DNA of 64,000 nt from Pseudomonadota bacterium (lineage in GTDB: Bacteria > Desulfobacterota > Binatia > Binatales > Binataceae), in the NCBI GenBank assembly GCA_021323945.1, contig JAJPKA010000020.1, positions 310,001 through 374,000 on the forward strand, given 5' to 3'. A program made the translations under genes and the position numbers. The number at the start of each line of letters is the position of its first letter. Positions within the stretch are counted from its first letter, which is position 1. The notes below the pieces were generated by a model, which made no database searches, had not been told where the DNA came from, and was given only the letters and a program-made list of their open reading frames with translations. Shown here in pieces: positions 11,204 through 62,552 of this stretch.

Positions 11204-13546
11204 CTAATCTGCCGCAGCGGCTTGCTGTTCGACCGATGTGCCCTGCTTTCGCATCAGCTCTTTTAGCAAACGAGGTGGAGACATCGGTAATTCGCGCATT
11301 CGAACGCCAACCGCGCGATAAATGGCATTGGCCACAGCAGCCATTGGTGGCACAATTGATACTTCGCCAACGCCTCGGACTCCGAGTGGATGGCTGGGGT
11401 TTGGCACTTCGACCACTATCGTCTCAATCGGCGGGAGATCCAAGCATGTGGGCATGCGATAATCGAGCAGGCTAGTGTTACGCAGCACTCCACGCTCATC
11501 ATAGACATATTCCTCGCTTAGAGCCCACCCGAGACCTTGAGCCAATCCTCCTTGCATCTGGCCTTCAACGTAGCTTGGATGAATCGCACGGCCGGCATCT
11601 TGAGCAATTGTGGCCCGGAGAATCTGAACTTTGCCGGTTTCCGGGTCAACTTCCACGTCGACACAAACGGTGGCGAAAGCGTTACCTACGGCTCCCACTG
11701 CACCCGCATTAACGGTCGCCCTACCGGTTACTGGCCCGCCAGTTCTAGCTAGGCGCGATGCCAGCTCTTTTAAGGTGAGCGGTGCAGCGTTTTCTCCGCT
11801 CGCTGTGAACACGCCATTTTTGAATTGGACTTCCTCAGGCTGTTTTTCCCAAAGCTTCGCCGCACGTTGCTTTAATTGTCGCAAGGCATCATGTGCCGCA
11901 TCGTATACTGCAAGCCCGGTAGCCAAGGCGATGCGGCTGCCACCGGTCACGTCAGTGTGCCCGATAGCATCAGTATCGGTAACTATCGGCCGCACATCGG
12001 TGACGTTGAGGCCCAAAACTTCCGCCGCAATCATTGCCATTGCGGCACGGGTACCGCCGATGTCGACGGAGCCAGTGACGACACTTATGGTGCCATCGGT
12101 ATGGACGTTCACCGTCGCCGAGGATTGCAAGCCGCCATTAAACCAAAATCCCGATGCCACACCGCGGCCCCGGTTTTTTCCGATCAACTCGGATCGGTAA
12201 TGGTCACTATTCTTGATGGCCTCAACCGTCTCAATGTAGCCGATCTTTTTAAATGGAGGCCCTGCGGGTTGTGGCGTCCCTTCATGCGACGCATTACGGA
12301 GCCGAAGTTCCAAGGGATCAATGCCACATTTTTCCGCCACTTCGTCGAGAGCCGTTTCGCAGGCGAACGCCGACGCGGGTGAACCGGGCGCCCGATAGGC
12401 GGCCACCTTAGGACGATTAACAACAACGTCAAACGAATCGATCTTGAGATTTTCAATGTGGTAGGGACCCAACGTCGTCATCGCGCCTGGTGCGAATGGC
12501 GAGCCGGGAAATGCGCCAGCCTCATAAGCCATCCAAACTTCAGCCGCCGTTATTTTGCCCTGGCGAGTAGCGCCGAGTTTGACGCGAATCTTTGTGCCGG
12601 AAGTGGGACCGGTAGCCCTTAGCACTTCGCTGCGGGTCATTGTTAGTTTGACCGGCCGGCCGGATTTTTTGGACAGCAAAACGGCCAAAGGCTCAAGGTA
12701 GACTGTGGTCTTGCCGCCAAAACCTCCGCCAATCTCCGCCGGGACAACTCGAATCATGCCCTCAGAGAGTCCCAGGATACTGGCCGTCAAAGTTCGGACG
12801 TTGAATGAACCCTGGGTCGAACAATAAATCGTGATGTGACCGTCCGGGTTGTATATGGCGAGAGCGTTCTGGGGTTCGATATAGCCCTGATGCACCGTGG
12901 CGGTTCTATATTCGCGCTCGACGATGAAATCGGCACTCTTGAATCCGGCTTCAAGGTCTCCGCGTTGGAATTGGATATGGGCGGCTACATTAGTGGGGCG
13001 GTCGGGCCCTTCTGGTGACCCTGGGTCGGTACGGTGAGCAATGAATCGGCTTCGCAACTCAGGCAGAAGGATCGGTGCGTCGGGCTTCATTGCCTCTTCC
13101 GCTGTCATGACCGGCGGCAGCAACTCATAATCCACTTCGATTAGTTCGAGCGCCTCTTCGGCAATGTGTTTACTGGTTGCGGCAACAGCGGCGACGGGAT
13201 GGCCATCGTATAAAACCTTGTCACGTGCCATCACGTTGAGGGACAGATAATGAGTATTGACGACTAACTCGCCAACCTGGGCCATCACCCCTTTTACCTC
13301 GGGGAAATCAGCGCCCGTAATGACGGCGTGAACACCCGGGTGCTTGAGAGCCTTGTCAATTCTGATCGACTTTATCTTCGCGTGTGCATGTGGACTCCTC
13401 AGCACCTTTCCGTAGAGCATTCCGGGCATTGAATAATCGGCGCCATACAGAGCTTGGCCGGTGACCTTTTCCACTCCGTCGTGCCGGATGGGCCGAGTGC
13501 CAATAACTCTGAAATTGCCATCGCTCGAACCATTGAGATGTGCCAC
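11204..13546 (-). CDS. Molybdenum hydroxylase large subunit (xanthine dehydrogenase family), copy B
   Basis: A 780-residue molybdopterin-cofactor-binding large subunit of the xanthine dehydrogenase / CO dehydrogenase / 4-hydroxybenzoyl-CoA reductase family. It opens with VIGTRPIRHDGVEKVTGQALYGADY, carries GGGFGGKT near residue 270, YRAPGSPASAF near 390, and the family active-site Glu in GVRGVGEVSIVPP near the end. Such subunits hydroxylate or dehydroxylate heterocycles, aldehydes or aromatic acyl-CoA; the substrate is unknown. The GTG start at 13546 has AGGAGG seven bases upstream. It closely resembles the other large subunit at 13951-16248, from which it is separated only by a MoaD-like gene. 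It is the last gene of the operon. Confidence 0.93.
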   Translation of the reverse strand: MAHLNGSSDGNFRVIGTRPIRHDGVEKVTGQALYGADYSMPGMLYGKVLRSPHAHAKIKSIRIDKALKHPGVHAVITGADFPEVKGVMAQVGELVVNTHYLSLNVMARDKVLYDGHPVAAVAATSKHIAEEALELIEVDYELLPPVMTAEEAMKPDAPILLPELRSRFIAHRTDPGSPEGPDRPTNVAAHIQFQRGDLEAGFKSADFIVEREYRTATVHQGYIEPQNALAIYNPDGHITIYCSTQGSFNVRTLTASILGLSEGMIRVVPAEIGGGFGGKTTVYLEPLAVLLSKKSGRPVKLTMTRSEVLRATGPTSGTKIRVKLGATRQGKITAAEVWMAYEAGAFPGSPFAPGAMTTLGPYHIENLKIDSFDVVVNRPKVAAYRAPGSPASAFACETALDEVAEKCGIDPLELRLRNASHEGTPQPAGPPFKKIGYIETVEAIKNSDHYRSELIGKNRGRGVASGFWFNGGLQSSATVNVHTDGTISVVTGSVDIGGTRAAMAMIAAEVLGLNVTDVRPIVTDTDAIGHTDVTGGSRIALATGLAVYDAAHDALRQLKQRAAKLWEKQPEEVQFKNGVFTASGENAAPLTLKELASRLARTGGPVTGRATVNAGAVGAVGNAFATVCVDVEVDPETGKVQILRATIAQDAGRAIHPSYVEGQMQGGLAQGLGWALSEEYVYDERGVLRNTSLLDYRMPTCLDLPPIETIVVEVPNPSHPLGVRGVGEVSIVPPMAAVANAIYRAVGVRMRELPMSPPRLLKELMRKQGTSVEQQAAAAD

Positions 13547-13950: not shown

Positions 13951-16248
13951 TCAACTCCCGGCAGCAGCAGCTTGGGCTTCTGCGCGGGTACGCTTACTCA
14001 GCAGGGCCTTGAGAACACGCGGAGGAGACATCGGCAATTCGGTCATTCGCACGCCGACAGCATGAGCTATCGCGTTAGCGACGGCCGCTGGAGGTGGTAC
14101 GATAGAAACCTCACCGACGCCGCGAATGCCGAGCGGATGGCCCGGGGTGGGGACCTCTACGATACAGGTCTCAATCATGGGCAAATCGAGGCAGGTCGGC
14201 ATCCGATAATCAAGCAGACCTGTATTGCGCAGAATCCCTCGCTCGTCGTAAAAATATTCTTCATTGAGCGCCCAGCCGATGCCCTGTGCCGTGCCGCCCT
14301 GCATCTGACCCTCGACGTAACTCGGGTGAATTGCCTTGCCCACGTCCTGGGCGACGGTCGCTCTCAAGATCTGGACCTTACCGGTATCAGGATCTACTTC
14401 CACGTCGATTACTGTCGTGGCGAAGGCAGGGCCGACCCCCCGCGCATTAACTGTAGCGCGGCCGGAAATTGGCCCGCCGGTTCTGGCCAGCCGTCCAGCT
14501 AACTCCTTGATCGTCATGGGCTTGATGCCATCACCCTGCGCGGTGAATAGCCCGTTAGCAAAGGAAACTTCCTCAGGCTTCTTCTCCCAGAGCTTGGCCG
14601 CGCGTTCCTTGAGCTGGCGGACCACATCCTGCGCTGCTTCATACACCGCCCATCCTGTCGCGAAGGCGGTGCGGCTGCCACCTGTTACGTCGGTATGCCC
14701 GATCGAATCGGTGTCGGTAACCAACGGTCGCACGTCATTAACGTCGAGTCCGAGCACCTCAGCTGCAATCATAGCCTGAGCCGCTCGCGTGCCACCTATA
14801 TCGACTGAGCCAATAACGACGCTGGCGGTCCCGTCTGTATGAATGTTGACGATCGCAGAGGACTGCAGACCGACGTTGAACCAAAACCCAGAGGCAACCC
14901 CTCGCCCTCGATTGGGTCCCTCTAACTTTGATTTATAATGCGGACTGTTCTTGATTGCCTCGACCGTCTCGATGTAACCAATCCGGCGATAAGGGGGACC
15001 CGCGGTCTGTGGCGTTCCCTCACGGGCGCCGTTCATGATGCGGAAATCACATGGGTCGATTCCGCATTTTTCGGCCAGTTCATCAATAATCGTCTCAGAA
15101 GCCATGGCCGCATTGCTGGCACCGGGAGCGCGGTAAGCTGCCGTCTTTGGCCGGTTCACCACGACGTCGTAGGCATCGATCAAGAGGTTAGGGATGTTGT
15201 AAGGTGCCACGATCGTCATCGCGCCAGCGCCGACGGGAGAGCCAGGAAAGGCCCCCGCCTCATAAGCCATCCAGATCTGAGCGGCTAGCAACTTACCATC
15301 TTTGGAGCACCCCATTTTGCATCGAATGGTCGAACCCGAGGTTGGTCCCGTGGCCCGTAACACCTCGGCACGCGACATCGTTAGCTTTACGGGGTGCCCG
15401 GTCTTTTTCGACAGCAGTACCGACAGGGGTTCGAGGTAAATTGTGGTTTTACCTCCGAAGCCACCACCGATTTCGGCGGGCACTACCTTGATATTACCCT
15501 CAGGCATACCGAGGACCGCGGCCGACAAAGAGCGCACCACGAAACTGCCTTGGGTCGAGCAGTAAATCGTGGCGTGGCCATCGGGGTTGTAAATGCCGAC
15601 CGCGTTATGGGGCTCTATATAGCCTTGATGAACCATCGCGGTCTTGAACTCGCGTTCAACCACGTAGTCTGCCTGTTTGAAGCCTTCGTTTACGTCACCG
15701 CGCTTGAATTGTAGATGAGTGGCGACATTAGTCGGTTTATCGGGGCCTTCTTCCTTGTTGCGCAGACCGGGCAGTAAAATGGGCGCGTCAGGCTTCATTG
15801 CCTCTTCGACCGACATGACCGGGGGAAGGACTTCATAGTCGACTTCGATGAGCCGCAACGCCTCCTCCGCAATATGTGGGCTTGTTGCGGCCACCGCTGC
15901 CACAGCATGACCATCGTAGAGCACCTTGTCCCGCGCCATTATGTTGGCGGAAAGGTGACTCATGTTCAGGGCCATCTCGCCCGCCTGCTCCATCTTATCT
16001 GGCAGAGCTGGCAAGTCATTGGCGGTAATGACAGCCTTCACGCCAGGCAGCGCGGCGGCTTTATCGACCTTGATCGACTTGATAATGGCGTGAGCATAGG
16101 GGCTGCGCAGGATCTTGCCGTACAACATCCCGGGGAAGTTGTAATCTGCGCCATATTTGGCTTGGCCCGTCACTTTCTCGATGCCATCGTGACGAACCGG
16201 ACGAGTCCCGATTACTCTGTAGTCGTGGCCATTGGGTGATGCCGCCAT
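13951..16248 (-). CDS. Molybdenum hydroxylase large subunit (xanthine dehydrogenase family), copy A
   Basis: A 765-residue paralogue of the large subunit at 11204-13546. Key motifs are the same: VIGTRPVRHDGIEKVTGQAKYGADY at the N-terminus, EIGGGFGGKT, YRAPGASNAAMASE, and the catalytic Glu region GIRGVGEVSIVPP. The ATG at 16248 directly follows the TAA of the 2Fe-2S gene, with AGGAGG eight bases before the ATG and inside the end of that gene, so translation is coupled. With the FAD and iron-sulfur subunits upstream this forms a standard three-subunit molybdenum hydroxylase; the second large subunit downstream may replace it for another substrate or pair with it. Substrate not determined. Confidence 0.94.
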   Translation of the reverse strand: MAASPNGHDYRVIGTRPVRHDGIEKVTGQAKYGADYNFPGMLYGKILRSPYAHAIIKSIKVDKAAALPGVKAVITANDLPALPDKMEQAGEMALNMSHLSANIMARDKVLYDGHAVAAVAATSPHIAEEALRLIEVDYEVLPPVMSVEEAMKPDAPILLPGLRNKEEGPDKPTNVATHLQFKRGDVNEGFKQADYVVEREFKTAMVHQGYIEPHNAVGIYNPDGHATIYCSTQGSFVVRSLSAAVLGMPEGNIKVVPAEIGGGFGGKTTIYLEPLSVLLSKKTGHPVKLTMSRAEVLRATGPTSGSTIRCKMGCSKDGKLLAAQIWMAYEAGAFPGSPVGAGAMTIVAPYNIPNLLIDAYDVVVNRPKTAAYRAPGASNAAMASETIIDELAEKCGIDPCDFRIMNGAREGTPQTAGPPYRRIGYIETVEAIKNSPHYKSKLEGPNRGRGVASGFWFNVGLQSSAIVNIHTDGTASVVIGSVDIGGTRAAQAMIAAEVLGLDVNDVRPLVTDTDSIGHTDVTGGSRTAFATGWAVYEAAQDVVRQLKERAAKLWEKKPEEVSFANGLFTAQGDGIKPMTIKELAGRLARTGGPISGRATVNARGVGPAFATTVIDVEVDPDTGKVQILRATVAQDVGKAIHPSYVEGQMQGGTAQGIGWALNEEYFYDERGILRNTGLLDYRMPTCLDLPMIETCIVEVPTPGHPLGIRGVGEVSIVPPPAAVANAIAHAVGVRMTELPMSPPRVLKALLSKRTRAEAQAAAAGS

Positions 16249-36264: not shown

Positions 36265-36945
36265 TCAGAGCTGCACCGTGGCGTCGATGTTATAAACGCG
36301 CACCTTGGTCATCGTGCGCTCTTCTCGCGCCTTTAGTTCCTGGCCGATTGCCGACTCATAAGCATTTCGGTACTGCTCAAAATCGTTGAACACGAGCATC
36401 ATCATCCGCAGTGGATTACGCAATCGGATACTGTTATCGAGGCCGGCCGCTCTTGGCATCCCAATGACTTGGTACTTACTAATCATCAAGTGGCGGAGAT
36501 TGGGTAGATCTCGAACCATTGCTACGTGCTCATCGAGATAGGACTGCTCGGCCGCTTCGGGGTCCTGCTCATTCAATTTAAGCTCGAATTCCATCGCTAC
36601 AACGAAACAGTTTAATCCTGGGTAGCGGTCGGTGAACGGTACGATAATGTCCGAATCGAGTTCGAGCCAATGGTTCACCCTCAAATGCGCTGCACCGTCC
36701 TTTATCAGAGGCTTTGCCTGAGGTGACTTGTGCAGCGCCCAGTGGAGCGCCTTGGCGTCGTCAAAGTAGTTGAACGCTGCTCGATGGGCTGGAGCAGGCT
36801 CCGGACCCGGACGGATGACACCGGTTATATATTGGCGCAGATTCGGCAGTTGCAGCGTGAGCGGCACATGGTTCTTAAGATAAAGCCTTTCGCCCTCAGC
36901 TATATCGCCGCTCCTAAAGTTGAATGTCGCAAATACTGTTTTCAT
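36265..36945 (-). CDS. Tandem EthD domain protein
   Basis: A 226-residue protein made of two EthD/ferredoxin-like alpha+beta modules: about residues 1-105 (ending at NHWLELDSD) and 110-226 (AMEFELKLNEQDPEAAEQSYLDEHVAMV at its start, positions about 36510-36600). The YLKNHVPL and YLDEHVAMV segments are the equivalent His-containing helices of each module. EthD proteins help ether-degrading P450 systems and related dimeric alpha-beta-barrel enzymes; role here unknown. The ATG is divergent from the beta-helix gene region. Confidence 0.82.
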   Translation of the reverse strand: MKTVFATFNFRSGDIAEGERLYLKNHVPLTLQLPNLRQYITGVIRPGPEPAPAHRAAFNYFDDAKALHWALHKSPQAKPLIKDGAAHLRVNHWLELDSDIIVPFTDRYPGLNCFVVAMEFELKLNEQDPEAAEQSYLDEHVAMVRDLPNLRHLMISKYQVIGMPRAAGLDNSIRLRNPLRMMMLVFNDFEQYRNAYESAIGQELKAREERTMTKVRVYNIDATVQL

Positions 36946-37083
36946 AAGGTCTCTGGGGACTTTAAATCAGCCTGAGCCAGCGACAAGCAAGTCACCCTTT
37001 ATCTTATATTCCGCACAAAGCAACTCCCAGTATTCGACGATCTCCAACTATGGCTTGTCAAGTTGGCTCGAGATGCGACCAGC

Positions 37084-37106
37084 CACGGGTGGCATTGCCA
37101 CCCGTG
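37084..37106. repeat. Perfect 10-bp inverted repeat upstream of beta-helix gene
   Basis: CACGGGTGGC (37084-37093) and GCCACCCGTG (37097-37106) are perfect reverse complements around ATT. It lies 90 bases before the start of the first beta-helix gene and could be a leader hairpin or an operator. Confidence 0.65.
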
Positions 37107-37195
37107 CAGTGCAGTTTAGTTGGTTGAGTATGCTCGGCAGCAACGCCCTCTTTTTTCGCGTGGGCGATTCAGTTCGCAAATCAGGAGAAGTAAGC

Positions 37196-38671
37196 ATGAG
37201 ATTTCGATCAGGAAAGCTGTTTAGGGTTCGCGCCTACGCCTCCCGACTGGCCATGATTCTGATCTCCAGCTGTCTGATTGCGGGGCCGCCTTGCAAAGCG
37301 CAGACTACGGTAACCCTGTCACCGGGTGCCAATATTCAGGCCGCAGTGAATGCCAACCCGAGCGGTACCAGCTTCATTTTAACGCCCGGGGTCTACCGCA
37401 TGCAGTCTGTGATGGCGAAATCTGGCGACACCTTCACGGGCCAGACTGGCGCAGTCCTGAACGGGTCACAGCTGCTCACTAACTGGGTTCACAACGGCAG
37501 TTACTGGACCGAGTCAGGCGCGCCGGCTGTGAAAAGCTTCTATGGAGATCCTGCTCAGTACTGCACGGATCCGACCACTGGCTGCGTCTATCCCCAAGAT
37601 CTCTACCTGAACAACAAGCCCTTGGTTCACAAACTTAGCCTGCCCATCACGTCAGGCCAGTGGTACTTTGATTACGACAAGGATGTCGTCTATATGGCAG
37701 ATGATCCGACTGGGCAAACTGTTGAGCTCAGCGTCACGCCGTACGCGTTTTATGGTCCTTCCAGCAATGTTACTATTCAAAACTTGATTGTCGAAAAATA
37801 TGCTGCCCCGATACCCAACGGAGCTATTTTTCCTTATGGGCCAAACTGGATAATCAAATCCAACGAGATTCGACTGAATCATGCGGCTGGAATCAAAGCT
37901 GGCAACGGCCAACCCAACGACAACTATGAACAGATACTAAGCAACAATGTTCACGACAATGGGCAGGAGGGTATTGCGGTTGGAGGTGGGACGGGAACTT
38001 TGGTTCAGTATAACACCATCGCCAATAACAATTTCGCGAATTTAGCCGATGGTTTTGAGTCCGGCGGAGGTAAAATCTCGGCAACGACTAATGCTCAGGT
38101 TTTTAACAATACCTATGTAAACAATAATGGTAATGGGCTTTGGGGTGACTGTGGAGCGACAGGTACGGTGTTTTCCGGCAACAACATCCGCGGCAATCGG
38201 TTGAGTGGAATCCGCTACGAGATTAGTCACTCCGCTACGATTTCCAATAACACCCTGGTGGACAACGATCAGTACCGGGGAACGGGCGCTTGCAATGCTG
38301 CCAAAGAGATCTTCATCGCGTCGAGCGATCACACGACCGTCTCCGGCAACAACATAACCAGCAATTGCGCTGGTATTACTCTCACTCAGGACTCGCGAAA
38401 TGCGGTGGTGTATGACTCTGTAGTTCACAACGCGACGAGTTATTCGGGCTCAACCAGCATTCCTGCGAGGATCGGCGGGCTGGATTCGCTGGTGCCGATG
38501 ACGATGTTCAACGCGAACAGCCACAACTACTTTGACTATAATACTTATCACTTCAGCTCGCCTGCCTTACTTAACGCATATAATTGGACTTGGAAGAGCA
38601 ATGGTAAGGCCAAGTTGACCTGGGCTCAGTGGCAGGCAGCTGGACAGGACATCCACGGTACGGCTGATTGA
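37196..38671 (+). CDS. Secreted right-handed parallel beta-helix protein, copy 1
   Basis: A 491-residue protein with a signal peptide (basic start, hydrophobic SRLAMILISSCLIAGPPCKAQ to about residue 37). It then begins with TVTLSPGANIQAAVNANPSGTSFILTPGVYRMQ (positions about 37310-37410), as in NosD/pectate-lyase-like beta helices. The middle has many Asn-rich turns (SNNVHDNGQEGIAVGGG, FNNTYVNNNGNGLWGD, ISNNTLVDN), the sign of stacked beta-helix rungs. Such folds bind or cleave polysaccharides. The ATG at 37196 has AGGAG eight bases before it; the frame is open further upstream but without homology. A 15-bp hairpin follows the stop. A paralogue lies at 39691. Confidence 0.9.
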   Translation: MRFRSGKLFRVRAYASRLAMILISSCLIAGPPCKAQTTVTLSPGANIQAAVNANPSGTSFILTPGVYRMQSVMAKSGDTFTGQTGAVLNGSQLLTNWVHNGSYWTESGAPAVKSFYGDPAQYCTDPTTGCVYPQDLYLNNKPLVHKLSLPITSGQWYFDYDKDVVYMADDPTGQTVELSVTPYAFYGPSSNVTIQNLIVEKYAAPIPNGAIFPYGPNWIIKSNEIRLNHAAGIKAGNGQPNDNYEQILSNNVHDNGQEGIAVGGGTGTLVQYNTIANNNFANLADGFESGGGKISATTNAQVFNNTYVNNNGNGLWGDCGATGTVFSGNNIRGNRLSGIRYEISHSATISNNTLVDNDQYRGTGACNAAKEIFIASSDHTTVSGNNITSNCAGITLTQDSRNAVVYDSVVHNATSYSGSTSIPARIGGLDSLVPMTMFNANSHNYFDYNTYHFSSPALLNAYNWTWKSNGKAKLTWAQWQAAGQDIHGTAD

Positions 38672-38715: not shown

Positions 38716-39690
38716 GCATTGGTTTCTGGTTGGCATCTCGCAATACCACAGGCAGTCGTCAAATGCGTGGGAGCTGACTGGGTAACGTTTTGCATGTCCC
38801 ATCGACCAGGCATCGTGGCTCTCGAAGCGCCTTTCAGTTTCTGGCAGCTCACAAACCCGAGGTAGCCTGGTCGGCTCGCGTGCGCCAATGGAATGCGATT
38901 AGGTGGTCCCGCGCCACTTCAGTGGTACTATTTGCATTTGCGATATTCCCATTAAAGGTCGACATGCACGGCCAGCAGGAGACTAAAAAGAAATAGATAT
39001 GGGAGGTGAAGCGATCAACAAGGCTTTTTAATCAGCGTTGTGGCAGTCGAGTCCAGGCAGCGTTGAACGGTTGCGGGACAAAAATCGCGGCATTGACTTT
39101 TACGATGATAATCCCGGTAACCGTTCTTACGGCAATAGACGTTCAGGCAAGGTCTAGTTCATCAGACAGGTTAACTCGTATATTTCATCGTTGTGCATTT
39201 TATGGCTCTGGTGACTTGATTTCGGCTTTCTAACAGATTATAGGAAAAGGCGCCGACGGGCGGGTTCAAGCCAGTCAGGCTGCAGCTTGAGCTCGCTACT
39301 CAGACGGAAATCTGCTTCAGTACGCGGGGGGTTATGTCAGCAGAATACCGCTACTCTTACGCCGGGGTCTTCCGTACCATTTTTCTCACCAACGGACTTT
39401 CTGCCATTCATACTTTCGGCGGGCGGGGCTCGCCTCGCTTCTAAGCGAGCTTATCTCTTTCATCCATAACCATTGCACAAGGGGTACTCTGTCCACGCTT
39501 TCCGGGCGCGTCGCACAAGGTGTGTCCTGTCGGCGGACGGATGAGTAAAGCCATCTCGACTCAGTCTTGGGTTCGGGACCTGTCATTTTCGCTCAAGCAG
39601 CCCCAAACACCGTGCTTTTGTCGGCAAGGGCTCGGCCCGGAGTTTTGTCTACGGGCTGGGAATAGCCAAATCCGGTCTGCGGAGATCCAT
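38716..39690 (+). other. About 1 kb between beta-helix paralogues with short signal-peptide-like frames
   Basis: No family-supported gene. Two short frames end in or contain hydrophobic stretches like signal peptides: 38790-38996 (SVVLFAFAIFPLKVDM) and 39006-39233 (basic start, then IAALTFTMIIPVTVLTAIDV). They may be remnants of further beta-helix genes or tiny secreted peptides. The remainder to 39690 is open only in pieces. Confidence 0.35.
39006..39233 (+). CDS. Possible small secreted peptide or gene remnant
   Basis: A 75-residue frame with a GTG start, preceded by GGGAG only one base away. The basic N-terminus and hydrophobic core (IAALTFTMIIPVTVLTAIDV followed by QARSSSSD) read as a signal peptide with a cleavage-like AxA-type end, after which only about 25 residues remain. 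It sits between two secreted beta-helix paralogues, so it may be the 5' remnant of a lost third copy. Low confidence. Confidence 0.25.
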   Translation: MKRSTRLFNQRCGSRVQAALNGCGTKIAALTFTMIIPVTVLTAIDVQARSSSSDRLTRIFHRCAFYGSGDLISAF

Positions 39691-41235
39691 ATGAAAACGA
39701 TAAATACTCAGACTAATCCTCAACTCACCCTGCAGCATTCGCAAAAGAGCCGCGAACAGACAAAAAGAAGTCTACCAGCAACGGTTGAAAGGAAGATTGG
39801 AGCGAGCAGCTACGCTTTGATCGTTTCCTTACTAATCATCGCGCCTGTCAGAATAGCTAGCGCGAGTACGGTCACACTGACTCCTGGCGCTAATATTCAG
39901 GCGGCGATCAACTCCAACCCGGCAGGAACCACCTTCTACCTGGCACCCGGAGTATATCGAATGCAGTCTTTGGTGCCGCTCAATGGTGATATTTTCATTG
40001 GCCAGACTGGCGCCACTCTAAATGGCTCGACCTTGGTAACGAATTGGACTAAGAGCGGCAGCTATTGGGTTAGTTCGGGTCACCAGCCTGTGAAGACGCC
40101 GCCGAATAAGTTTTCCTGCCAGTCGCCACAGGCAGCTTGTACCTATCCTCAGGACCTATTCCTCAATAACAAACCGCTGAGCCATCAACTTTCCCTTCCG
40201 ATATCCTCGGGCCAATGGTACTTCGATTATGCGCACGGTTTGATCTATATGGCGGACAATCCGAGTGGTCAGACCGTTGAATTGAGTGTGACACCGCGCG
40301 CTTTCATGGGGAAAGCCAACAACGTCAAGATTCAGAACTTGGTGATTGAGAAATACGCGTCACCGCTGATTACGGCCGCGGTTCAGCCAACCGGCTCGGG
40401 ATGGATCATTCAGAATAATGAGGTCCGATTTAATCACGGCGAAGGTATCAAGACGCAAGGTAACAATGAGCAGGTTTTAAGCAACAAGGTTGACAACAAC
40501 GGTGAGGAGGGGATGTGCGCGGGCGGTGGTTCCGGCGACCTGTTCGAATACAACAACGTCTACAATAACAACTTTACGCACGTAGCATTTGGAATCGAAA
40601 TGGGAGGAGGCAAGTTCAGCGCGACCACCAACGCCCAAGTAATCAACAATACCTTCTCAAATAATGACGGGAATGGCATTTGGTTTGACGAGCAGTCGTA
40701 CGGCTCTGTGGCTCGGGGCAACACCGTCACGCATAACACAAAGGACGGCATTCGCTGCGAATACAGCCATCACTGCCTGATTTCGAATAATGTGTTGACT
40801 TACAATACTCAGAATCAGACAACCGGCACGTGCACACCGAATGGTCGCGAGATCACAATCACGGCGAGCGACTATGCAACCGTGTCAGGCAACACTATTA
40901 CAAGTAACTGCTCCGGGATTTTCGTGGGTGGTCAGCAGCAAAATGAGGCCGTCCTCCCGATCGGGATCGTTGTGACTGACAACACGATAACATATTCAGG
41001 CTCGACCGTGATCTACGAGCGGATAGGTGGAGCGGACGGTACACTAGGCAGCTCGTCACCCTTGTTCAATCCGAAAGACGGAAGCTATTTTGACTATAAC
41101 ACCTACCACTTCAAATCGACCAGTATGCTCAATCTGACTAATTGGGTGTGGGGTGGCACTGCTGGTCAGCCGTATTGGAAGAACTGGTCACAGTGGCGGG
41201 CTGCCGGTCAGGATACTCATGGTTCTGCCGATTAA
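39691..41235 (+). CDS. Secreted right-handed parallel beta-helix protein, copy 2
   Basis: A 514-residue paralogue of the protein at 37196-38671. A long basic n-region precedes a hydrophobic segment (SYALIVSLLIIAPVRIASAS, to about residue 68). Shared blocks include LTPGANIQAAIN, PGVYRMQSL, GQTGATLNGS, TYPQDLFLNNKPL, GQWYFDYAHG, NLVIEKYASP and the end QWRAAGQDTHGSAD. Asn-rich rungs fill the centre (VINNTFSNNDGNGIWFDE). Two cysteines in FSCQSPQAACTYPQ correspond to CTDPTTGCVYPQ in copy 1 and may form a disulfide. The ATG has GGAG six bases upstream. A hairpin follows the stop. Confidence 0.9.
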   Translation: MKTINTQTNPQLTLQHSQKSREQTKRSLPATVERKIGASSYALIVSLLIIAPVRIASASTVTLTPGANIQAAINSNPAGTTFYLAPGVYRMQSLVPLNGDIFIGQTGATLNGSTLVTNWTKSGSYWVSSGHQPVKTPPNKFSCQSPQAACTYPQDLFLNNKPLSHQLSLPISSGQWYFDYAHGLIYMADNPSGQTVELSVTPRAFMGKANNVKIQNLVIEKYASPLITAAVQPTGSGWIIQNNEVRFNHGEGIKTQGNNEQVLSNKVDNNGEEGMCAGGGSGDLFEYNNVYNNNFTHVAFGIEMGGGKFSATTNAQVINNTFSNNDGNGIWFDEQSYGSVARGNTVTHNTKDGIRCEYSHHCLISNNVLTYNTQNQTTGTCTPNGREITITASDYATVSGNTITSNCSGIFVGGQQQNEAVLPIGIVVTDNTITYSGSTVIYERIGGADGTLGSSSPLFNPKDGSYFDYNTYHFKSTSMLNLTNWVWGGTAGQPYWKNWSQWRAAGQDTHGSAD

Positions 41236-54440: not shown

Positions 54441-56015
54441 GTGCCATCCATCAGGCCCATAACGAAGCAGGCCTCGGCGACCCTCTGGCCGCGCCTTGCA
54501 GCGATTTCACTGTTTGTGTCGTTTACCCAAGAGCAACGAGATGCGTTCCTGCGTGCCTACGAGCAAGAACCTGAAATGGGCATACGGACCTTTGACGGCG
54601 GGGAAGCGGTTTGCCGCAAAGGAGAGTATGAGCTCGACCTCTGTCTGATACTCAGCGGTCGGGTCGACTTGTTCGAGGATGAGGCTCACGGTCGTGCTCA
54701 TGTTGCCAGTCTGGGTGCAGGAACATTTTACGGCGAACTTGGCGCACTCGGGGGCGTGCCCCGTTCGCTCGACGTAATTGCGGCCACTCAAACCGAGATC
54801 TTCTACATCCCGCGTCATGCACTTAAATATCTGGAAGTTAACTCGGAAGCCCGTTCGATACTGGCTGAGCGTTATCGCGAACGCGCCGTCGCCAGCTCGG
54901 CCGCAGAACTCGACTTGTTTCGAGGGGTGCCACCCGAATTCATCCAGCAACTCGTTCCTCGATGCGAAATCCTGCGATACGAACTGCGCGGAATTCCAAT
55001 CGTCACGCAAGGCGAACTGGGCGACGCACTATACATAGTGCGAGATGGTTTTCTTCAGGTTGCCCGGCGCGAGCCCGATGGAAGTGAAAAGGTCTTTGCC
55101 TACCTTCGCACCGGAGATTTCTTCGGCGAGATGGCGTTGTTCGAGACGGGGATTCGATGGTCGAGCGTGGTCACTGCTGGCAAATGCGAACTAATCAAGA
55201 TTCGCGGGGATGATTTTCTCGAGCTCTGTCGACGATTTCCCGCGATTGAGGTTGAAGTCCGAAAGATTATCAACCGCCGCAGGGAGCAGGAACGTTCCAT
55301 CACCCCTGAGCTCTCCGAGCTGCTCAAAAAGATGGGTCAACTGGGAGTTATCCAGGCCGACGCGCTTCTGGTGATGGATTTGGAACTGTGCATCAAATGC
55401 GACAATTGCGTGCGCGCCTGTGAGTCGCTGCATGGCAAAAGCCGATTGATCCGCAACGGCATTCAGTTAGGCAACTATCTCGTGCCCAGCGCCTGCCGCC
55501 ACTGTGATGATCCTAAGTGCATGAACGCCTGTCCCACTGGGGCGCTCAAGCGCCGGCCGGAAGGCGAGATCTATTTCGAATATGATATGTGTATCGGATG
55601 TGGTAACTGTGCGATCGCATGCCCTTACGATAACATCGCCATGATAGATACTCCGACCTTCGATCGCGCGCAGTTACGTAAGTCGCGAATCACCAACGAC
55701 CCCAGCTTCTTCCGTCCTTATCCTGTAGCGTCGCACGACGTTGCTGACGAAAGTTGGTTCAGGCGTTTGTTCGGCCGCATTCGCGGCAAGCATAGCCGCA
55801 AACCGGTTCAACTTGGAACCTCCGGTGCGCCGGGTCATGTACCGGTCGCCTATCCCATAAAGTGCGACCTCTGTGATGGTTTGCCGTTTATGGGCTGTGT
55901 TCATAGCTGTCCGACCGGCGCCGCCATGCGCATTGATCCAGCAACTTTGATCGAAGAGACCGGTGCGGTGAGTGCCGGTTCACGCGTACGGAAGGCCCGA
56001 GGGGGCAACGACTAA
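54441..56015 (+). CDS. Double cNMP-binding protein fused to four-cluster ferredoxin
   Basis: A 524-residue protein without signal peptide or membrane helix. Two cyclic-nucleotide-binding domains lie at about residues 45-150 (GAGTFYGELGALGGVPRSL) and 165-285 (RTGDFFGEMALFETGIRWS). There is no helix-turn-helix, so it is not a CRP-type regulator. Residues 310-500 form a DmsB/HybA-like ferredoxin with four cysteine groups: C317/320/323/327, C352/355/360/364, C384/387/390/394 and C475/478/486/490, enough for four 4Fe-4S clusters. It should transfer electrons in the cytoplasm under nucleotide control. The start is GTG at 54441. The stop overlaps the next frame by 44 bases if the GTG at 55972 is used there. 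Confidence 0.9.
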   Translation: MPSIRPITKQASATLWPRLAAISLFVSFTQEQRDAFLRAYEQEPEMGIRTFDGGEAVCRKGEYELDLCLILSGRVDLFEDEAHGRAHVASLGAGTFYGELGALGGVPRSLDVIAATQTEIFYIPRHALKYLEVNSEARSILAERYRERAVASSAAELDLFRGVPPEFIQQLVPRCEILRYELRGIPIVTQGELGDALYIVRDGFLQVARREPDGSEKVFAYLRTGDFFGEMALFETGIRWSSVVTAGKCELIKIRGDDFLELCRRFPAIEVEVRKIINRRREQERSITPELSELLKKMGQLGVIQADALLVMDLELCIKCDNCVRACESLHGKSRLIRNGIQLGNYLVPSACRHCDDPKCMNACPTGALKRRPEGEIYFEYDMCIGCGNCAIACPYDNIAMIDTPTFDRAQLRKSRITNDPSFFRPYPVASHDVADESWFRRLFGRIRGKHSRKPVQLGTSGAPGHVPVAYPIKCDLCDGLPFMGCVHSCPTGAAMRIDPATLIEETGAVSAGSRVRKARGGND

Positions 56016-57033
56016 GGGACCGGCGAAACGCGCGGCCTCAGGCGGTACGAACGCAGTGCCATTTACGAGTAGCTCCGAGCGAATCGAAGAGCAGGTTGAC
56101 CGGTTACCAGCTGACCGACCAACGACAAAGCCGAGCCGGGCCTCGTTGGGCGAGGCAGCGGCCAGGCGCCATAGTGCGCCGATCGCTTCGATGCTGATCT
56201 GGAGCCTGTTCTGCGGCTCCAGCGTTGTCGCGCTTTACAAGTTATTTGCAGGATGGGCCTCGCGGGCGGGAGCTTATCGCACCGGAATCCTTACGACGGG
56301 AATCTTCATGCTGGCCGCGCTGTACCCTGTACGCAAACAAGCCTTATGGTTGTCATTGCGCTATACGCGGTGGATCGCACGTTTGCCCCGCCCCCTGGGG
56401 GTTCGACTGCTGGTGCTGGACCGACTCGAAAGCTGGCGCATTGTGCACGTTTCCGCAGGTGTTTTCAGCTTGTTGCCATTTTGGTGGCATACACAGTTCG
56501 GCCCCCGTAGTCTTCTCGAACTCGTGCTTGAAGTGTTCGTGTTGGCACTGGCCGTCAGCGGTCTTCTGGGGACATTGATTGAGGATTTCCTGCCCGCGCG
56601 GATGTTGAAGTTGGGTAATCCAGAAGTCCGACTGGAAGACGTTGAAGCCGCGTCGCAGGAGCTGTACGTGCAAGCGGAAGAGCTGGTTCTCGGTCACTCC
56701 GAGCCGCTGGTTCATGCCTACCTTTCACTGCTACGGCCTATTGTGGCCGGCAATCAGCCTTCTCTGCGACTCTTGTGGGCCACGCTCTCTGGCATTAATC
56801 CAGCCTCGACCGTATGTAAGCCCGCCCGACTCATTGCAGACGGCTTCGGGGTCGAAGCAGCCGTTTTCCATCAATTGGTTGATATCGCCGAACGCAAGGT
56901 GGGGCTCGACCATAACCAATTTAATCTGAAGTTGAGCGGCGAATGGCTGCGGCTGCATCGCAGCCTTGCTATAGCTGTGCTTGTGCTGGTTGCCTTCCAC
57001 ATCACCGGTGTTCTCTATTTCGTGGGAATATGA
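55972..57033 (+). CDS. Membrane protein with two His pairs, cytochrome b-like
   Basis: Up to 353 residues; I do not recognise a named family. Predicted helices lie at about 70-92, 105-122, 155-172, 183-205 and 328-350. Two His pairs, H159/H173 and H329/H343, are each 14 residues apart, the spacing of haem ligands along helices in cytochrome b-type diheme proteins. The stretch 210-325 is soluble. The GTG at 55972 is only the furthest possible start; the first 65 residues are polar and may be untranslated, with a start nearer 56057 or later. Its TGA overlaps the ATG of the following gene (ATGA), so the two are translationally coupled. Confidence 0.7.
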   Translation: MPVHAYGRPEGATTKGPAKRAASGGTNAVPFTSSSERIEEQVDRLPADRPTTKPSRASLGEAAARRHSAPIASMLIWSLFCGSSVVALYKLFAGWASRAGAYRTGILTTGIFMLAALYPVRKQALWLSLRYTRWIARLPRPLGVRLLVLDRLESWRIVHVSAGVFSLLPFWWHTQFGPRSLLELVLEVFVLALAVSGLLGTLIEDFLPARMLKLGNPEVRLEDVEAASQELYVQAEELVLGHSEPLVHAYLSLLRPIVAGNQPSLRLLWATLSGINPASTVCKPARLIADGFGVEAAVFHQLVDIAERKVGLDHNQFNLKLSGEWLRLHRSLAIAVLVLVAFHITGVLYFVGI

Positions 57034-59351
57034 ACGTCCGCTGGGTTCTGGTGGCTTCGGCGATCGTCGGTGCCGTGGCCGCGTTGGCGGTGCTTGCGCC
57101 GCGCTCGAGCTATCAACCCGGCCCGTTATTGAAAGCGCACCAGCAGCTGATTACCGACTGCAACGCCTGTCACCGTCCATGGCGCGGGCCTTCGAATGCG
57201 GGCTGTGTAAATTGCCACGGTGAGCTGAGCGAAAACAATCCCCATACGGGGCTCGACGTCACCGACAAAGACGCCGGGCTTATGCCGGGGCACACGCTGG
57301 CGATGGACACCGCCCATAACCTCGAATGCCTCAGTTGCCACGGCGAACATCAAGGTCCAACGCCGAACATCGGCATGAGTGCTGGGTTCGCCTGCACATG
57401 GTGTCACAAACACCCAGCAATTCCGGCTGTGCCAGAGCATCAAGTTCACGTAATGGAACGGCAATTTTTTGTCAGGCACTTGTTCAGGCGCCCGTTCAGT
57501 CATTACGAGCATGAATTGTTAACCAAGTCGCATTATCCGCCGGTGGCGGGTGGGTTCAACTGTTCATCCTGTCATTTGGTGACGCCCGTGCCACCGGGGC
57601 GGAATGATCAGATGAGTTTCAAGTGGGCAGGATGCGCTGGAACAGGCTGCCATCTCGTCCCGCAAGACAGATTTATGCAGCTCTCACCGTCTCTTGGCCC
57701 TTCACCGGTCTCCATTCCCTACTCGAGCGTCGTCACGGTCAGACATATCAAGGCCGTCTTCGTTCATTCTGCAGGCCATCTCAAAACTGCTTGCGAACGG
57801 TGTCATTTCGAGATGAATAAGAGCCGCGATCCTGACGATCAAGCCTCGTTGGCGGTTAGTCGCTGCTTCGATTGCCATACGCACCGACCCGATAGCGGCG
57901 GAGACCAGATCGCGACCGGACCGATAAATTCCCGACAGGATCAGTCAACTGACCCGCAGACTGCAGCCAGGAAAGCTCGCGCGGTCCGACCAGCGAGGGG
58001 CGTGCCGCTGAATGCGGGTGCGAAAGTGCTCGCTTGCAGCCAGTGTCACCTGTTTCACGCGTACGGGGTGGTTCCCATACGTGACTTTCCCAATCCTGCG
58101 CCTCAGTTTCCACCAAATCGTCCTGACCATCTCAAGTTAACGGTCTATGTGCCGCGGTGGAGGTCTATCGACGGGAACTCTCGAATCCGGGCCGTCACCC
58201 TGGATGGCGTCGTGCTCTCACCCTGGTGGATGGGTATGGTCGCAATAGGTCTCGTAACTTATCAGTTCACCCGATATGTCAGGCATTTATCGCAGACGCA
58301 CAACTTTCACGAAGCGGCGCCCGACGTGGCGCCGCAGCGACCCAGGGAGGTCCCCGCGCTAGATGACACTTACCAGACGAGTATCAGAAACTTGTACATC
58401 GTCGGTGAGGCAGCGGGTACTGCCTCAATAAATCTCGCAATGCGTTCCGGTCGCCAGGTTATCGAAGCGATTGCAAGTCAGCTCCGGCCTTACCCCTCGT
58501 CGTCCCAACCAGACCTATACGATGTTGTAATCGTTGGTTGCGGGCCTGCGGGCTTGGGCGCGACCGCTACGGCGAAGGTCTTGGGTCTAAAATATGCAAC
58601 TCTGGAAAAGTTGACTCCCGCAAGCACGCTGCGATCATATCCGCGCGCCAAATTCGTGCAGGCAACGCCTATCGATCTGGCTGAGTACGGTTCGTTCTTC
58701 CTCGAAGGCGACAATTCACGCGAAGAGCTGATCCGCGAATGGGAAAAGATCATCGCTAAATTGCAACTTGTCATCAACGATCGTGAAGAAGTGACAGCTG
58801 TGATGCGTGAGCAGAACCACCTGCTTGTCCGGACTGCGCGCGGCAACTCGTACCGAGCAAGAGCTGTGGTGCTGGCAATCGGAGTTCGTGGGAATCCTCG
58901 TCATCTAAATCTGCCGGGAGAAGAGCCAGGTCGGGTATTTTACAACCTCATCGAACCAGAAGAGTTTACCGGGTGCCGGATTCTCGTGGTAGGAGGAGGT
59001 AACGCAGGGGCTGAGGCTGTCCGGGCTCTCGCTGATCGCCGGCTGGCCAATACGGTGAGCTATTGCTTCCGCTCCCCTGTCTTGACCAATGTGACACCGG
59101 AGAATGCTGACGCGATCGTCGCTCTGCAAAAGGCCAAGGCGATCTCAATCTATCCCGCGACCATCCTGACAGAAATACGACCTCAGAGCGTAGTCCTTGA
59201 GCCGCTGAAGCCGGCCAGCGGTGGAGTGTCGGCAGGGGCAATTGAACTCGCAAATGATTACATCTTCGCGATGATCGGCGCTGAACTACCTGTCGCATTT
59301 CTCAAGTCGATAGGTATCAAGATGGTGAGCAAAGGCCGGCTATATAGATAA
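57030..59351 (+). CDS. Nine-haem cytochrome c fused to FAD/NAD(P) reductase
   Basis: A 773-residue protein. An N-terminal helix (about 5-22) leads to a periplasmic cytochrome domain with eight CXXCH motifs (Cys44, 59, 100, 122, 178, 255, 279, 336) and one CX4CH (Cys202). A second helix lies at about 396-414. The cytoplasmic part is a thioredoxin-reductase/YpdA-like flavoprotein with FAD loop VVIVGCGPAGLGA (499-511) and NAD(P) loop VVGGGNAGAE (653-662), and no CxxC redox pair. A segment NLYIVGEAAG...INLAMRSGRQVIEA (454-480), which normally ends such flavoproteins, comes before the FAD loop instead. The ATG at 57030 overlaps the previous stop. The frame upstream to 56943 is inside the previous gene. 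Confidence 0.88.
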   Translation: MNVRWVLVASAIVGAVAALAVLAPRSSYQPGPLLKAHQQLITDCNACHRPWRGPSNAGCVNCHGELSENNPHTGLDVTDKDAGLMPGHTLAMDTAHNLECLSCHGEHQGPTPNIGMSAGFACTWCHKHPAIPAVPEHQVHVMERQFFVRHLFRRPFSHYEHELLTKSHYPPVAGGFNCSSCHLVTPVPPGRNDQMSFKWAGCAGTGCHLVPQDRFMQLSPSLGPSPVSIPYSSVVTVRHIKAVFVHSAGHLKTACERCHFEMNKSRDPDDQASLAVSRCFDCHTHRPDSGGDQIATGPINSRQDQSTDPQTAARKARAVRPARGVPLNAGAKVLACSQCHLFHAYGVVPIRDFPNPAPQFPPNRPDHLKLTVYVPRWRSIDGNSRIRAVTLDGVVLSPWWMGMVAIGLVTYQFTRYVRHLSQTHNFHEAAPDVAPQRPREVPALDDTYQTSIRNLYIVGEAAGTASINLAMRSGRQVIEAIASQLRPYPSSSQPDLYDVVIVGCGPAGLGATATAKVLGLKYATLEKLTPASTLRSYPRAKFVQATPIDLAEYGSFFLEGDNSREELIREWEKIIAKLQLVINDREEVTAVMREQNHLLVRTARGNSYRARAVVLAIGVRGNPRHLNLPGEEPGRVFYNLIEPEEFTGCRILVVGGGNAGAEAVRALADRRLANTVSYCFRSPVLTNVTPENADAIVALQKAKAISIYPATILTEIRPQSVVLEPLKPASGGVSAGAIELANDYIFAMIGAELPVAFLKSIGIKMVSKGRLYR

Positions 59352-59369: not shown

Positions 59370-59870
59370 CTACACGTGATTAATATCCAGCACTGATTCG
59401 ATCTCGTCATTGAGCACGATGATCTTTTTTCTGACGATCTTCGGTTGGTCTTTCTGAAACCGGAGTAGATGTTCATAAAAACCAAAATAGCTCGAACTTC
59501 GGCGTTGGAAGGGCCTGTAAATCCGAACCTGCCAGTGCGACGCCACGTGAGGCTCATCGGGGTCTGTGGCGTCGAGAAGGCGCACATTGGTGATGAAATG
59601 GCAGGTACGAATCAACGGATCAGATGCCAACGATTGGCCCGATTGTATGCGCCAGATTCGATCTTCCAAACCCGCACGGTTGTTGTAGTAAATCAAGGAA
59701 AGCTGGGACTGCGGGTCACTGGTCGGTGCCCGGCCGCCGTGCCATGCCGGTACCCAGAACTCTGCATCCTCCGCGTACAGCGCCAACCACTCAGCCCAAC
59801 GCTTTTCATCAAGATACGCTGCTTCTCGATAAAGCAGTTCGGCGCAACGATTCAGCACTTCGTTATTCAC
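59370..59870 (-). CDS. Aromatic ring-hydroxylating dioxygenase beta subunit
   Basis: A 166-residue small subunit of a Rieske dioxygenase, of the NTF2-like cystatin fold; it supports the alpha3beta3 structure. Features: LYREAAYLDEKRWAEWLALYAEDAEFWVPAW near the start (positions about 59735-59830), then IRTCHFITNVRL and the end KKIIVLNDEIESVLDINHV. The closest type by eye is benzoate/anthranilate dioxygenase BenB. It overlaps the alpha subunit gene by 8 bases. No ferredoxin or reductase gene follows; the stop converges with the multihaem gene 18 bases away. Confidence 0.93.
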   Translation of the reverse strand: MNNEVLNRCAELLYREAAYLDEKRWAEWLALYAEDAEFWVPAWHGGRAPTSDPQSQLSLIYYNNRAGLEDRIWRIQSGQSLASDPLIRTCHFITNVRLLDATDPDEPHVASHWQVRIYRPFQRRSSSYFGFYEHLLRFQKDQPKIVRKKIIVLNDEIESVLDINHV

Positions 59871-61263
59871 CGCTGTTACTCCCTGAACGCGCCAACCCGC
59901 CGTTCATCAATCTGAGCCACTGACGGTACTGGCCCTGGAAGATGACTTCGTCCCGAAAATCACTACTGCTCGATGCGGGCTGGATCTGGAGCGCCCTGGC
60001 TTCGGCGTCGGGCCCAGAGATCGCCCGGCAAGCCCCGCGCACGTAGCCCTGCTGCCAGCGCACCAATCGGCCGCGGTATCCCTCCTGACAGGCCTCGAAT
60101 GCCGCCAGATCATCAGGAGTGCCAATGCCGCTGGCATTGAAGAAGTCCTCATATTGCCGCAGGCGATGAGCTCGGGACTCGGGCTTTTCCCCGATTGGCG
60201 CAATGCAATAAGTCGAGACTCGAGTCTTATCCACTGCCAATGGGTGAATGACGCGAATCTGCGTCGAAGTCTGATCCATCAGGAAAACATTAGGATATAC
60301 CAGTAGATTACGCACTCGATCCATCATCCAACGAGCTCGGTGCTCGCCGAATTTGGCCACAAACTCAGCGCGTCGGTCGTAAAGCGGGCGGCTTGCCGGA
60401 TTGGGGTAATCGATCCACAAAAGGCTGTGTCCATTTCCCAGGTCGTAACAACCGTTGCCCAGCTCCGGGGCCGCCAGGCGCCCCACGTCAAGTGCCCGCA
60501 CTGAGTCTTTGCCCGAGTTCATGCGCCGCTGAATGACTCCCGCAAAAGTGCGATGCACGATGTCGAAATGATAGCCGTCCACACCGTTTTCGACCTGCAA
60601 TTTCCAGTTGCCTGCATACGTGTAGTCTGCACTGCCTGTTACTACTTCCAGACCTTCCGGCGCCTGATCGACGATCATGTCGATAAAGGTCCGTGCCGCT
60701 CCGAGATTCGTTTCGAGATCGCACACCGCGGGGTTGAGACTGCCGAAAATGAATCCGCGATAATTACCCAGACGCGGGACCCGTTTTAGCCCGTGATCGA
60801 GATGAGAGAAGCCGGTCGGATAGGCACCGCTGGCCTCATCCTTGATGTTGACCAACATGCCGTTATTGCTGAAACACCACCCGTGGTAGGGGCAGGTTAG
60901 AATCTTCCGATGACCGCTCCTCTCCACGCAGAGTCGCGCGCCCCGATGAGGGCATGTATTGATGAAGCCACCGACTTCGCCATGTTCGTCGCGCATGAGG
61001 ATGATCGGCTGACGTCCGATGGTAGTGGTTAAAAAATCGTGCGGCCGGGGCAACTGACTCTCGTGCGCCAAGTAGATCCAAGTGCCCTCGAAGATGTATT
61101 GCATCTCGAGCTCAAACAGACCGGGATCGGTGAATACCGCCCGATCAACTGTGAACATTCCTTCCCCGTCGACGACATAGTCGTCGAAGCCACTCGCGCG
61201 ATAGAGCTCTCTGAAGCCTAACGATTGGGGTCGGTCCAACGCACCAGCAGTTGTGGTCTCCAT
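59863..61263 (-). CDS. Aromatic ring-hydroxylating dioxygenase alpha subunit (BenA-like)
   Basis: A 466-residue Rieske non-haem iron oxygenase large subunit. The Rieske 2Fe-2S site is C104-P-H106 and C124-P-Y-H127 (NTCPHRGARLC, LTCPYHGWCF). The mononuclear iron site has ENGVDGYHFDIVH with H232 and H237, plus the bridging Asp229. Length and motif spacing fit the benzoate/toluate/anthranilate group, which cis-dihydroxylates aromatic acids. The beta subunit follows with overlapping frames. Electrons must come from a reductase coded elsewhere. Confidence 0.95.
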   Translation of the reverse strand: METTTAGALDRPQSLGFRELYRASGFDDYVVDGEGMFTVDRAVFTDPGLFELEMQYIFEGTWIYLAHESQLPRPHDFLTTTIGRQPIILMRDEHGEVGGFINTCPHRGARLCVERSGHRKILTCPYHGWCFSNNGMLVNIKDEASGAYPTGFSHLDHGLKRVPRLGNYRGFIFGSLNPAVCDLETNLGAARTFIDMIVDQAPEGLEVVTGSADYTYAGNWKLQVENGVDGYHFDIVHRTFAGVIQRRMNSGKDSVRALDVGRLAAPELGNGCYDLGNGHSLLWIDYPNPASRPLYDRRAEFVAKFGEHRARWMMDRVRNLLVYPNVFLMDQTSTQIRVIHPLAVDKTRVSTYCIAPIGEKPESRAHRLRQYEDFFNASGIGTPDDLAAFEACQEGYRGRLVRWQQGYVRGACRAISGPDAEARALQIQPASSSSDFRDEVIFQGQYRQWLRLMNGGLARSGSNSGE

Positions 61264-61343
61264 GCCAACTCTCCTATCTATCCTTTATCCCCGCGGCTGG
61301 TTCTGCCCGCAGGCTTGCCGTCGAAGGCCGGCGTCCGGTGGGC

Positions 61344-62552
61344 CTAGGTATCCAAACCTTTTACAAAGCCGGCGACGGTGTTGTGATGATGGACGATCAA
61401 GGACTCCAGGGTGGGGGATAGTGTCATGAATGCCATCACGCCGGATCGCTGAGCGGCATGTGTGCTTTCGATAGTGCTAAGGTCCTCTCGGATCGCGTCT
61501 CGCATTGCAACCTTGGAGTACTCCTGGGCGATTCTCACTGCGGGGCTTGTGGTGCGTCGCTGGTAGTACTTCACCTGCCAGTTGGTGTGATCCACGTCGA
61601 TCGGCCAGAACTCATGACACAACATCCAGCCGTCCCCCAGGAACAGATGGAAGTTTGGGAAAATCACGAACTCGTCAAATACCCAGTTGTCTCGGTTCTC
61701 GACATTCAAGGAAGGCCACCGGCGATTCGGCAACTGGTCGGTATTGTTCACGTTGAGGAAGGCGGCGGAGCCGAGTTTAAAAGCCAAGGCCTCGGCAGGT
61801 TTCGGTTTATGATGCAGATTTTGGTAATAAGTGAGTTTGCAGTGTCGTCCTAGCGGCTGAGCACTTGGCACTATAGGGTCTGCCCGAAAGTCTGGTATCG
61901 AACGTCGGTGGACCGCCAAGACGTGATAGGCCTCGATAAAGGCGTCCTGAAAAGTCTTCCAGTTCGCAGTTAAAGTTGCACCCCACCAGCCGCTCAGCTC
62001 CATCTCGGCGAAAGGAAATCCATCGAGCATCCCGCTAATCGGTTCAAGGTATTTGCGTAAACTGGTTTCTGGTGAGGTTTGCAGGTGAACGAAGATGAAA
62101 CCCTCCCAGACGTCCAGTGCGAGTGGAATCAAGCCCAGTTGCGCTCTATCGCAGCCGCGAAACTCACTCTCGAGAGGAATACCCACCAACGCTCCTTCAC
62201 AATCATAGGTCCAGCCATGAAAGCCGCAGGTAAAGGCGCGCGCGGAGCCGTGGGGTTGGTTGACCAGCCGATTGCCGCGATGGCGGCAAAGATTGTGAAA
62301 GGCGCGCAGCTGTCCATCGCGTCCGCGGACGACCAGGACCGAGGTGCCCAAGACCTCCAGCCGGCGGACGAAGAAATCACCCGGATTAGGAACTGCTTCA
62401 GCTCGGCCGATCTGTAGCCAGACGCGTCTGAAAATTCTCTGACGCTCAAGCTCAAAATATTGGGCTGAAATGTTGGGGCCAACAGGAACATGTTGCGGTC
62501 CCGGCAAAGGCTCGGATCCGTCGCTGTTGTTGACATCTATTTCTTCAACCAT
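61344..62552 (-). CDS. Second Rieske oxygenase alpha subunit
   Basis: A 402-residue Rieske oxygenase. The 2Fe-2S site is C89-R-H91 and C109-G-F-H112 (NLCRHRGNRLV, FTCGFHGWTYDCEG), and the mononuclear iron motif is FIEAYHVLAVHR. The sequence differs from the BenA-like neighbour (other linker, no adjacent beta subunit), and resembles homotrimeric enzymes of the phenylpropionate/choline/steroid type. It lies 80 bases upstream of the BenA-like gene on the same strand. Its substrate is unknown. Confidence 0.93.
   Translation of the reverse strand: MVEEIDVNNSDGSEPLPGPQHVPVGPNISAQYFELERQRIFRRVWLQIGRAEAVPNPGDFFVRRLEVLGTSVLVVRGRDGQLRAFHNLCRHRGNRLVNQPHGSARAFTCGFHGWTYDCEGALVGIPLESEFRGCDRAQLGLIPLALDVWEGFIFVHLQTSPETSLRKYLEPISGMLDGFPFAEMELSGWWGATLTANWKTFQDAFIEAYHVLAVHRRSIPDFRADPIVPSAQPLGRHCKLTYYQNLHHKPKPAEALAFKLGSAAFLNVNNTDQLPNRRWPSLNVENRDNWVFDEFVIFPNFHLFLGDGWMLCHEFWPIDVDHTNWQVKYYQRRTTSPAVRIAQEYSKVAMRDAIREDLSTIESTHAAQRSGVMAFMTLSPTLESLIVHHHNTVAGFVKGLDT

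Follow-up and report, generated by a model that had tools for sequence, protein, structure and literature searches.

A nine-haem cytochrome c fused to a predicted circular permutant of a YpdA/TrxR-like flavodomain in a Binataceae genome

The window analysed here is a stretch of 64,000 nucleotides from a member of the Binataceae (contig JAJPKA010000020.1). It carries a three-gene operon whose last gene encodes a multihaem cytochrome and a flavodomain in one polypeptide. The genes and the features of the third product are as follows.

54441 to 56015, forward strand: operon gene 1, protein with two cNMP-binding domains and four Cys quartets, CISM-type [4Fe-4S] protein
55972 to 57033, forward strand: operon gene 2, predicted diheme cytochrome b of the membrane with HX13H in each of two helices
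57030 to 59351, forward strand: nine-haem cytochrome c, transmembrane helix and predicted circularly permuted YpdA/TrxR-like flavodomain, 773 aa
57042 to 57104, forward strand: N-terminal signal-anchor helix, residues ~5-25, from hydropathy
57159 to 58049, forward strand: nine haem-c attachment motifs, residues 44-340 (eight CXXCH, one CX4CH)
58206 to 58271, forward strand: second transmembrane helix, residues ~393-414, with no His or Cys inside
58338 to 58490, forward strand: residues 437-487 (strand-GEAAG-helix), the C-terminal FAD segment in its displaced position before the FAD loop
58509 to 59348, forward strand: FAD and NAD(P) domains in the usual order, residues 494-773 (Pyr_redox_3/Pyr_redox_2)

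The three genes overlap. The 55972 gene starts before the stop at 56015, and the next junction is an ATGA (57030-57033), in which the 57030 start codon shares bases with the stop of the gene before it; this start agrees with the N-termini of the homologues. The frame from 57030 to 59348 (forward strand) is open throughout, with 773 codons. A promoter and terminator scan gave nothing better than chance. The 54441, 55972 and 57030 genes occur together in the same 16 of the 41 genomes of the window's family and are absent from the same 25. Elsewhere in the window, inspection of the sequence picked out two adjacent paralogous large subunits of xanthine-dehydrogenase-type molybdenum hydroxylases (11204-13546 and 13951-16248), two paralogous secreted proteins that resemble right-handed parallel beta-helix proteins (36920-38671 and 39520-41235), and a ring-hydroxylating dioxygenase-like group with two Rieske large subunits and one small subunit, convergent with the operon (59370-62552).

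The haem motifs of the 57030 protein lie at residues 44, 59, 100, 122, 178, 202, 255, 279 and 336; the one at residue 202 reads CAGTGCH (CX4CH). In homologues that span them, all nine sites are retained; four homologues have an ordinary CXXCH where the CX4CH stands. The CX4CH is therefore taken as a real ninth haem site, and the count of nine made in the earlier note holds. Pfam assigns Cytochrom_c3_2 and Pyr_redox_3 (500-768) to the protein. The class III/c7-like profile PF14537 scores 25.7 bits, just over its cut-off of 25, which classes this part as multihaem cytochrome c3-like. The cytochrome part is probably periplasmic, judging from the N-terminal signal-anchor helix. The sequence of the second helix varies freely among homologues. 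Beyond this helix the segment with NLYIVGEAAG (454-463) leads into NLAMRSGRQVIEA, followed by the FAD loop GCGPAG (503-508) and the NAD(P) loop GGGNAGAE (655-662), and the protein terminates soon after IFAMIGAELPVAFLKSIGI. The helix, the GE-AAG segment, both loops and the protein end are all where the earlier note had placed them. The fused cytochrome-flavodomain layout is kept in 15 other genomes at ~40-70% identity, and a frameshift, an assembly artefact or a single-gene oddity is thereby ruled out.

The 54441 protein has 16 Cys in four groups (residues 317-490), and the best matches of its Fe-S part are DmsB, DsrO and FDH beta. It shows 31% identity over 473 aligned positions to a Sphingobium protein in which cNMP domains, an Fe-S part and an unpermuted YpdA are fused. 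In Sphingobium and in one further genome (G018) the homologue of the 54441 protein carries the unpermuted flavodomain as a fusion, which is independent evidence for a joint function of the Fe-S protein and the flavodomain. The 55972 membrane protein matches no Pfam family and no curated family. It carries two His pairs, H159/H173 and H329/H343, and HX13H is present in both helices of 13/13 membrane homologues, including those beside the Bacteroidota and Sphingobium systems. The protein is predicted from the His spacing to be a diheme cytochrome b. A partial second homologue of this membrane subunit is found in the window's own genome (L149 7594-8430; G000:C1:134716-135219), with no adjacent multihaem cytochrome.

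The three products probably form one NAD(P)H-linked transmembrane electron-transfer complex with a permuted flavodomain, in which the 57030 protein's second helix would serve as a tether. The cofactor content, topology, electron path and cyclic-nucleotide control that we infer are these. The cytoplasmic flavodomain would bind FAD and NAD(P)H, the 57030 protein being a predicted NAD(P)H dehydrogenase with bound FAD, and would exchange electrons with four [4Fe-4S] clusters of the cNMP-domain protein. The membrane subunit, with its two b haems, would connect the clusters to the nine-haem cytochrome, which the 57030 protein's own anchor would keep in the periplasm. The second helix would hold flavin reductase and periplasmic cytochrome in one complex and would not be part of the electron path. 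The chain may be gated by cyclic nucleotide.

The flow of electrons from NAD(P)H to the periplasm is the more likely direction. The same complex might run inward, with the periplasmic cytochromes taking electrons from outside and the flavodomain making NAD(P)H, driven by the membrane potential. The parts would be the same, and a haem-c/haem-b/Fe-S/FAD chain is reversible in principle; however, such a reaction is thermodynamically uphill unless coupled and the locus shows no sign of a lithotrophic donor, so we regard inward flow as unlikely. The earlier note had proposed that electrons cross the membrane within the 57030 protein alone, from flavin to haem c. The FAD domain and the haems do belong to one chain and are separated by a single helix, but that helix is freely variable and lacks any haem or cluster ligand, the membrane is wider than the range of direct electron tunnelling, and the diheme-b-like subunit is always co-encoded in the window's family. 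A one-chain conduit is thus highly improbable, and the likely conduit is the upstream HX13H/HX13H protein of the three-gene complex.

By sequence comparison the flavodomain is a circularly permuted YpdA/TrxR-type reductase in which the C-terminal strand-helix that would contact the FAD leads the domain, and a predicted structure supports this reading. Pfam Pyr_redox_2 aligns to the window protein over profile positions 1-256 of 291, so the C-terminal part of the profile is missing after the NAD domain; in the unpermuted protein L143 the match extends to 291. The best NCBIfam match is YpdA, over profile positions 1-263 of 316. When compared to the sequence of the S. aureus YpdA structure by phmmer, the flavodomain aligns in two blocks in swapped order, with query residues 14-42 of the minor block on YpdA 278-307. 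A BLAST alignment to L013, the unpermuted protein of Sphingobium, has a major block of residues 495-771 on 11-308 (E 4e-27) and a minor block of 442-481 on 311-350, and L143, of the same class, gives the same swapped pattern. In a rotation test the displaced segment was moved to the end of the domain and scored with an HMM built from unpermuted reductases only, with 20 shuffles per member. The window domain scores 103.9 bits in native order and 112.4 after rotation (best of 20 shuffles 105.6), a modest gain of 8.5 bits; the rotated form beats all 20 shuffles in 22/23 members. With TIGR04018, the native, rotated and shuffled window domains score 123.8, 127.6 and 120.1 bits, and profile coverage grows from 1-263 to 1-312 on rotation. 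The same order is seen in about 40 permuted sequences.

An AlphaFold model of the flavodomain (pLDDT 87, pTM 0.76) includes the displaced strand and helix with high confidence. Foldseek places YpdA first (E 1e-21, 274/344 residues), and the top six matches are all YpdA, with TM 0.68-0.69 by query length. A coverage of 274/344 is expected if about 65 leading residues drop from a sequential alignment. The earlier note had named a repeat of the segment after residue 760 in homologues as evidence against a permutation. Such a second copy was sought in the homologues and none was seen; their sequences stop at a point corresponding to about residue 768 or continue into unrelated membrane domains. 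An acidic residue after the glycine of the displaced motif is typical of TrxR-type FAD sites. That residues 437-487 are an unrelated GE-containing linker, the flavodomain having simply lost its C-terminal segment, would accord with the weak HMM matches of the isolated window segment (best E 0.0077), but it is hardly credible against the rotation test, the two-block alignments to three unpermuted sequences, the E or D that follows this glycine in 23/23 permuted members aligned, and the isolated segment of L019, which matches YpdA positions 272-306.

The earlier note had suggested a search for the same domain order in other genomes. Named genomes were scanned, and the permuted order was present in at least eight phyla (Gemmatimonadota, Bacteroidota, Acidobacteriota, Nitrospirota, Myxococcota, Planctomycetota, Pseudomonadota and Verrucomicrobiota). 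The usual form consists of one helix, two ferredoxin-like Fe-S motifs and the permuted flavodomain, and most permuted loci have as neighbours cytochromes with 16-40 CXXCH and a membrane protein of 4-5 helices. In other forms a NosR/NapH-like membrane polyferredoxin follows the permuted flavodomain (L007, L009, L012, L026, L027, L033). Among the loci of the named genomes scanned, none has a cytochrome in the same chain as the permuted flavodomain; the cytochrome-flavodomain fusion is found in 16/41 genomes of the window's family. A sister family of the window's class (G312) has a cytochrome fusion with a ferredoxin in between. Its locus encodes a cNMP-FeS protein, a membrane protein and a protein of 1379 aa (L137 6841-10977) with three FHA domains, a helix, a ten-haem cytochrome, a second helix, a ferredoxin and the permuted flavodomain. 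It looks like a link between the ferredoxin form and the window form; in the window's family, the ferredoxin that would have stood between tether and flavodomain seems to have been lost. Control by phosphorylation is suggested by the three FHA domains. The displaced strand-helix directly follows the tether in the window protein and a ferredoxin in most relatives, so that the attachment point is altered and the fold and FAD site would be kept.

In an alignment of 14 Fe-S-form sequences (L014-L020, L022, L023, L028, L029, L031, L034, L053) all 14 have CxxHxxCxxxCP as the second ferredoxin motif, where a His replaces the second Cys; at the corresponding position of the first motif Ser, Thr or Ala is frequent. 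These proteins possibly hold unusual clusters of the 3Cys-1His or 3-Cys type. The AlphaFold model of one of them (L023) is of lower confidence (pLDDT 79, pTM 0.61), and its nearest fold is YpdA.

In the tree, the permuted rows stand apart from true YpdA and TrxR, and the unpermuted YpdA-cNMP-cNMP-FeS fusions (L013, L143, L144) are nested among permuted proteins. In an AU test a single clade of permuted proteins was not rejected (p 0.33). Judging from this topology, a reversal of the permutation or more than one origin may have occurred; a single origin, with or without later reversal, may likewise account for the tree.

We found no description of the permuted flavoprotein reductase in the largely open literature on permuted FAD reductases, YpdA, multihaem cytochromes and cNMP/FHA modules. 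A permuted domain in PMC11334425 was considered as a precedent and rejected, as it is an unrelated FMN-bind domain. The earlier note's remark that it knew of no enzyme so built agrees with this search, but the permuted domain is widespread and not unique to the window. Its current annotation is 'NAD(P)-binding domain-containing protein' only. The fold and the cofactors are already known; the segment order and the combination are new. These proteins may be, as a tentative reading, a phylum-spanning set of unrecognised transmembrane NAD(P)H:cytochrome c oxidoreductases with an old permutation, perhaps reversed in the unpermuted lineage, and with cyclic-nucleotide regulation in the lineage of the window. 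No account of a natural circular permutant of the flavoprotein reductase fold was found in that literature. In many phyla, often uncultured, this conserved locus type would connect haem-rich cytochromes of the periplasm with soluble reductant; in the window's family a cyclic nucleotide may provide an input. It is a candidate for the NAD(P)H connection to outward (or inward) electron flow in such bacteria.

Among known enzymes, the YpdA/Bdr bacillithiol disulfide reductase (TIGR04018; PDB 7a7b, 7apr) is nearest in sequence and fold to the FAD/NAD(P) part of the window protein. YpdA/Bdr has the order FAD-NAD(P)-FAD with the C-terminal segment last, whereas in the window protein this segment precedes the FAD loop. 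The window protein scores 120 bits against the curated TIGR04018 cut-off of 339.9 bits, has Ala (GCGPAG) in place of the Cys of the GxGPCG loop, and is fused to a cytochrome; the GPCG loop is found in the unpermuted YpdA-like L035 and L038. Thioredoxin reductase and the TrxR-like ferredoxin-NADP reductases share with it the fold of two nucleotide domains and the acidic G-E/D residue, and the ferredoxin-NADP reductases exchange electrons with an Fe-S protein, as the window flavodomain probably does. Thioredoxin reductase has a CXXC in the NAD(P) domain, which is absent from residues 494-773, and unlike these types the window flavodomain is membrane-tethered and has the permuted order. Flavocytochrome c enzymes combine FAD with haem c in a single chain, as is predicted here, but they have both cofactors on one side of the membrane and a different flavin fold; the match to NF005064 (E 3e-4) is confined to the FAD loop. 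CISM-type modules (DmsB/NrfC-like Fe-S subunits) have four Cys quartets in common with the 54441 protein; in the window, the membrane subunit is instead the HX13H/HX13H protein, and the operon has a flavodomain and no molybdenum catalytic subunit. The unpermuted Sphingobium/G018 system (YpdA-cNMP-cNMP-FeS, membrane protein, FHA-cytochrome c3) has Fe-S, membrane and cytochrome parts homologous to those of the window, but its flavodomain is in the usual order and is fused to the Fe-S protein, not to the cytochrome.
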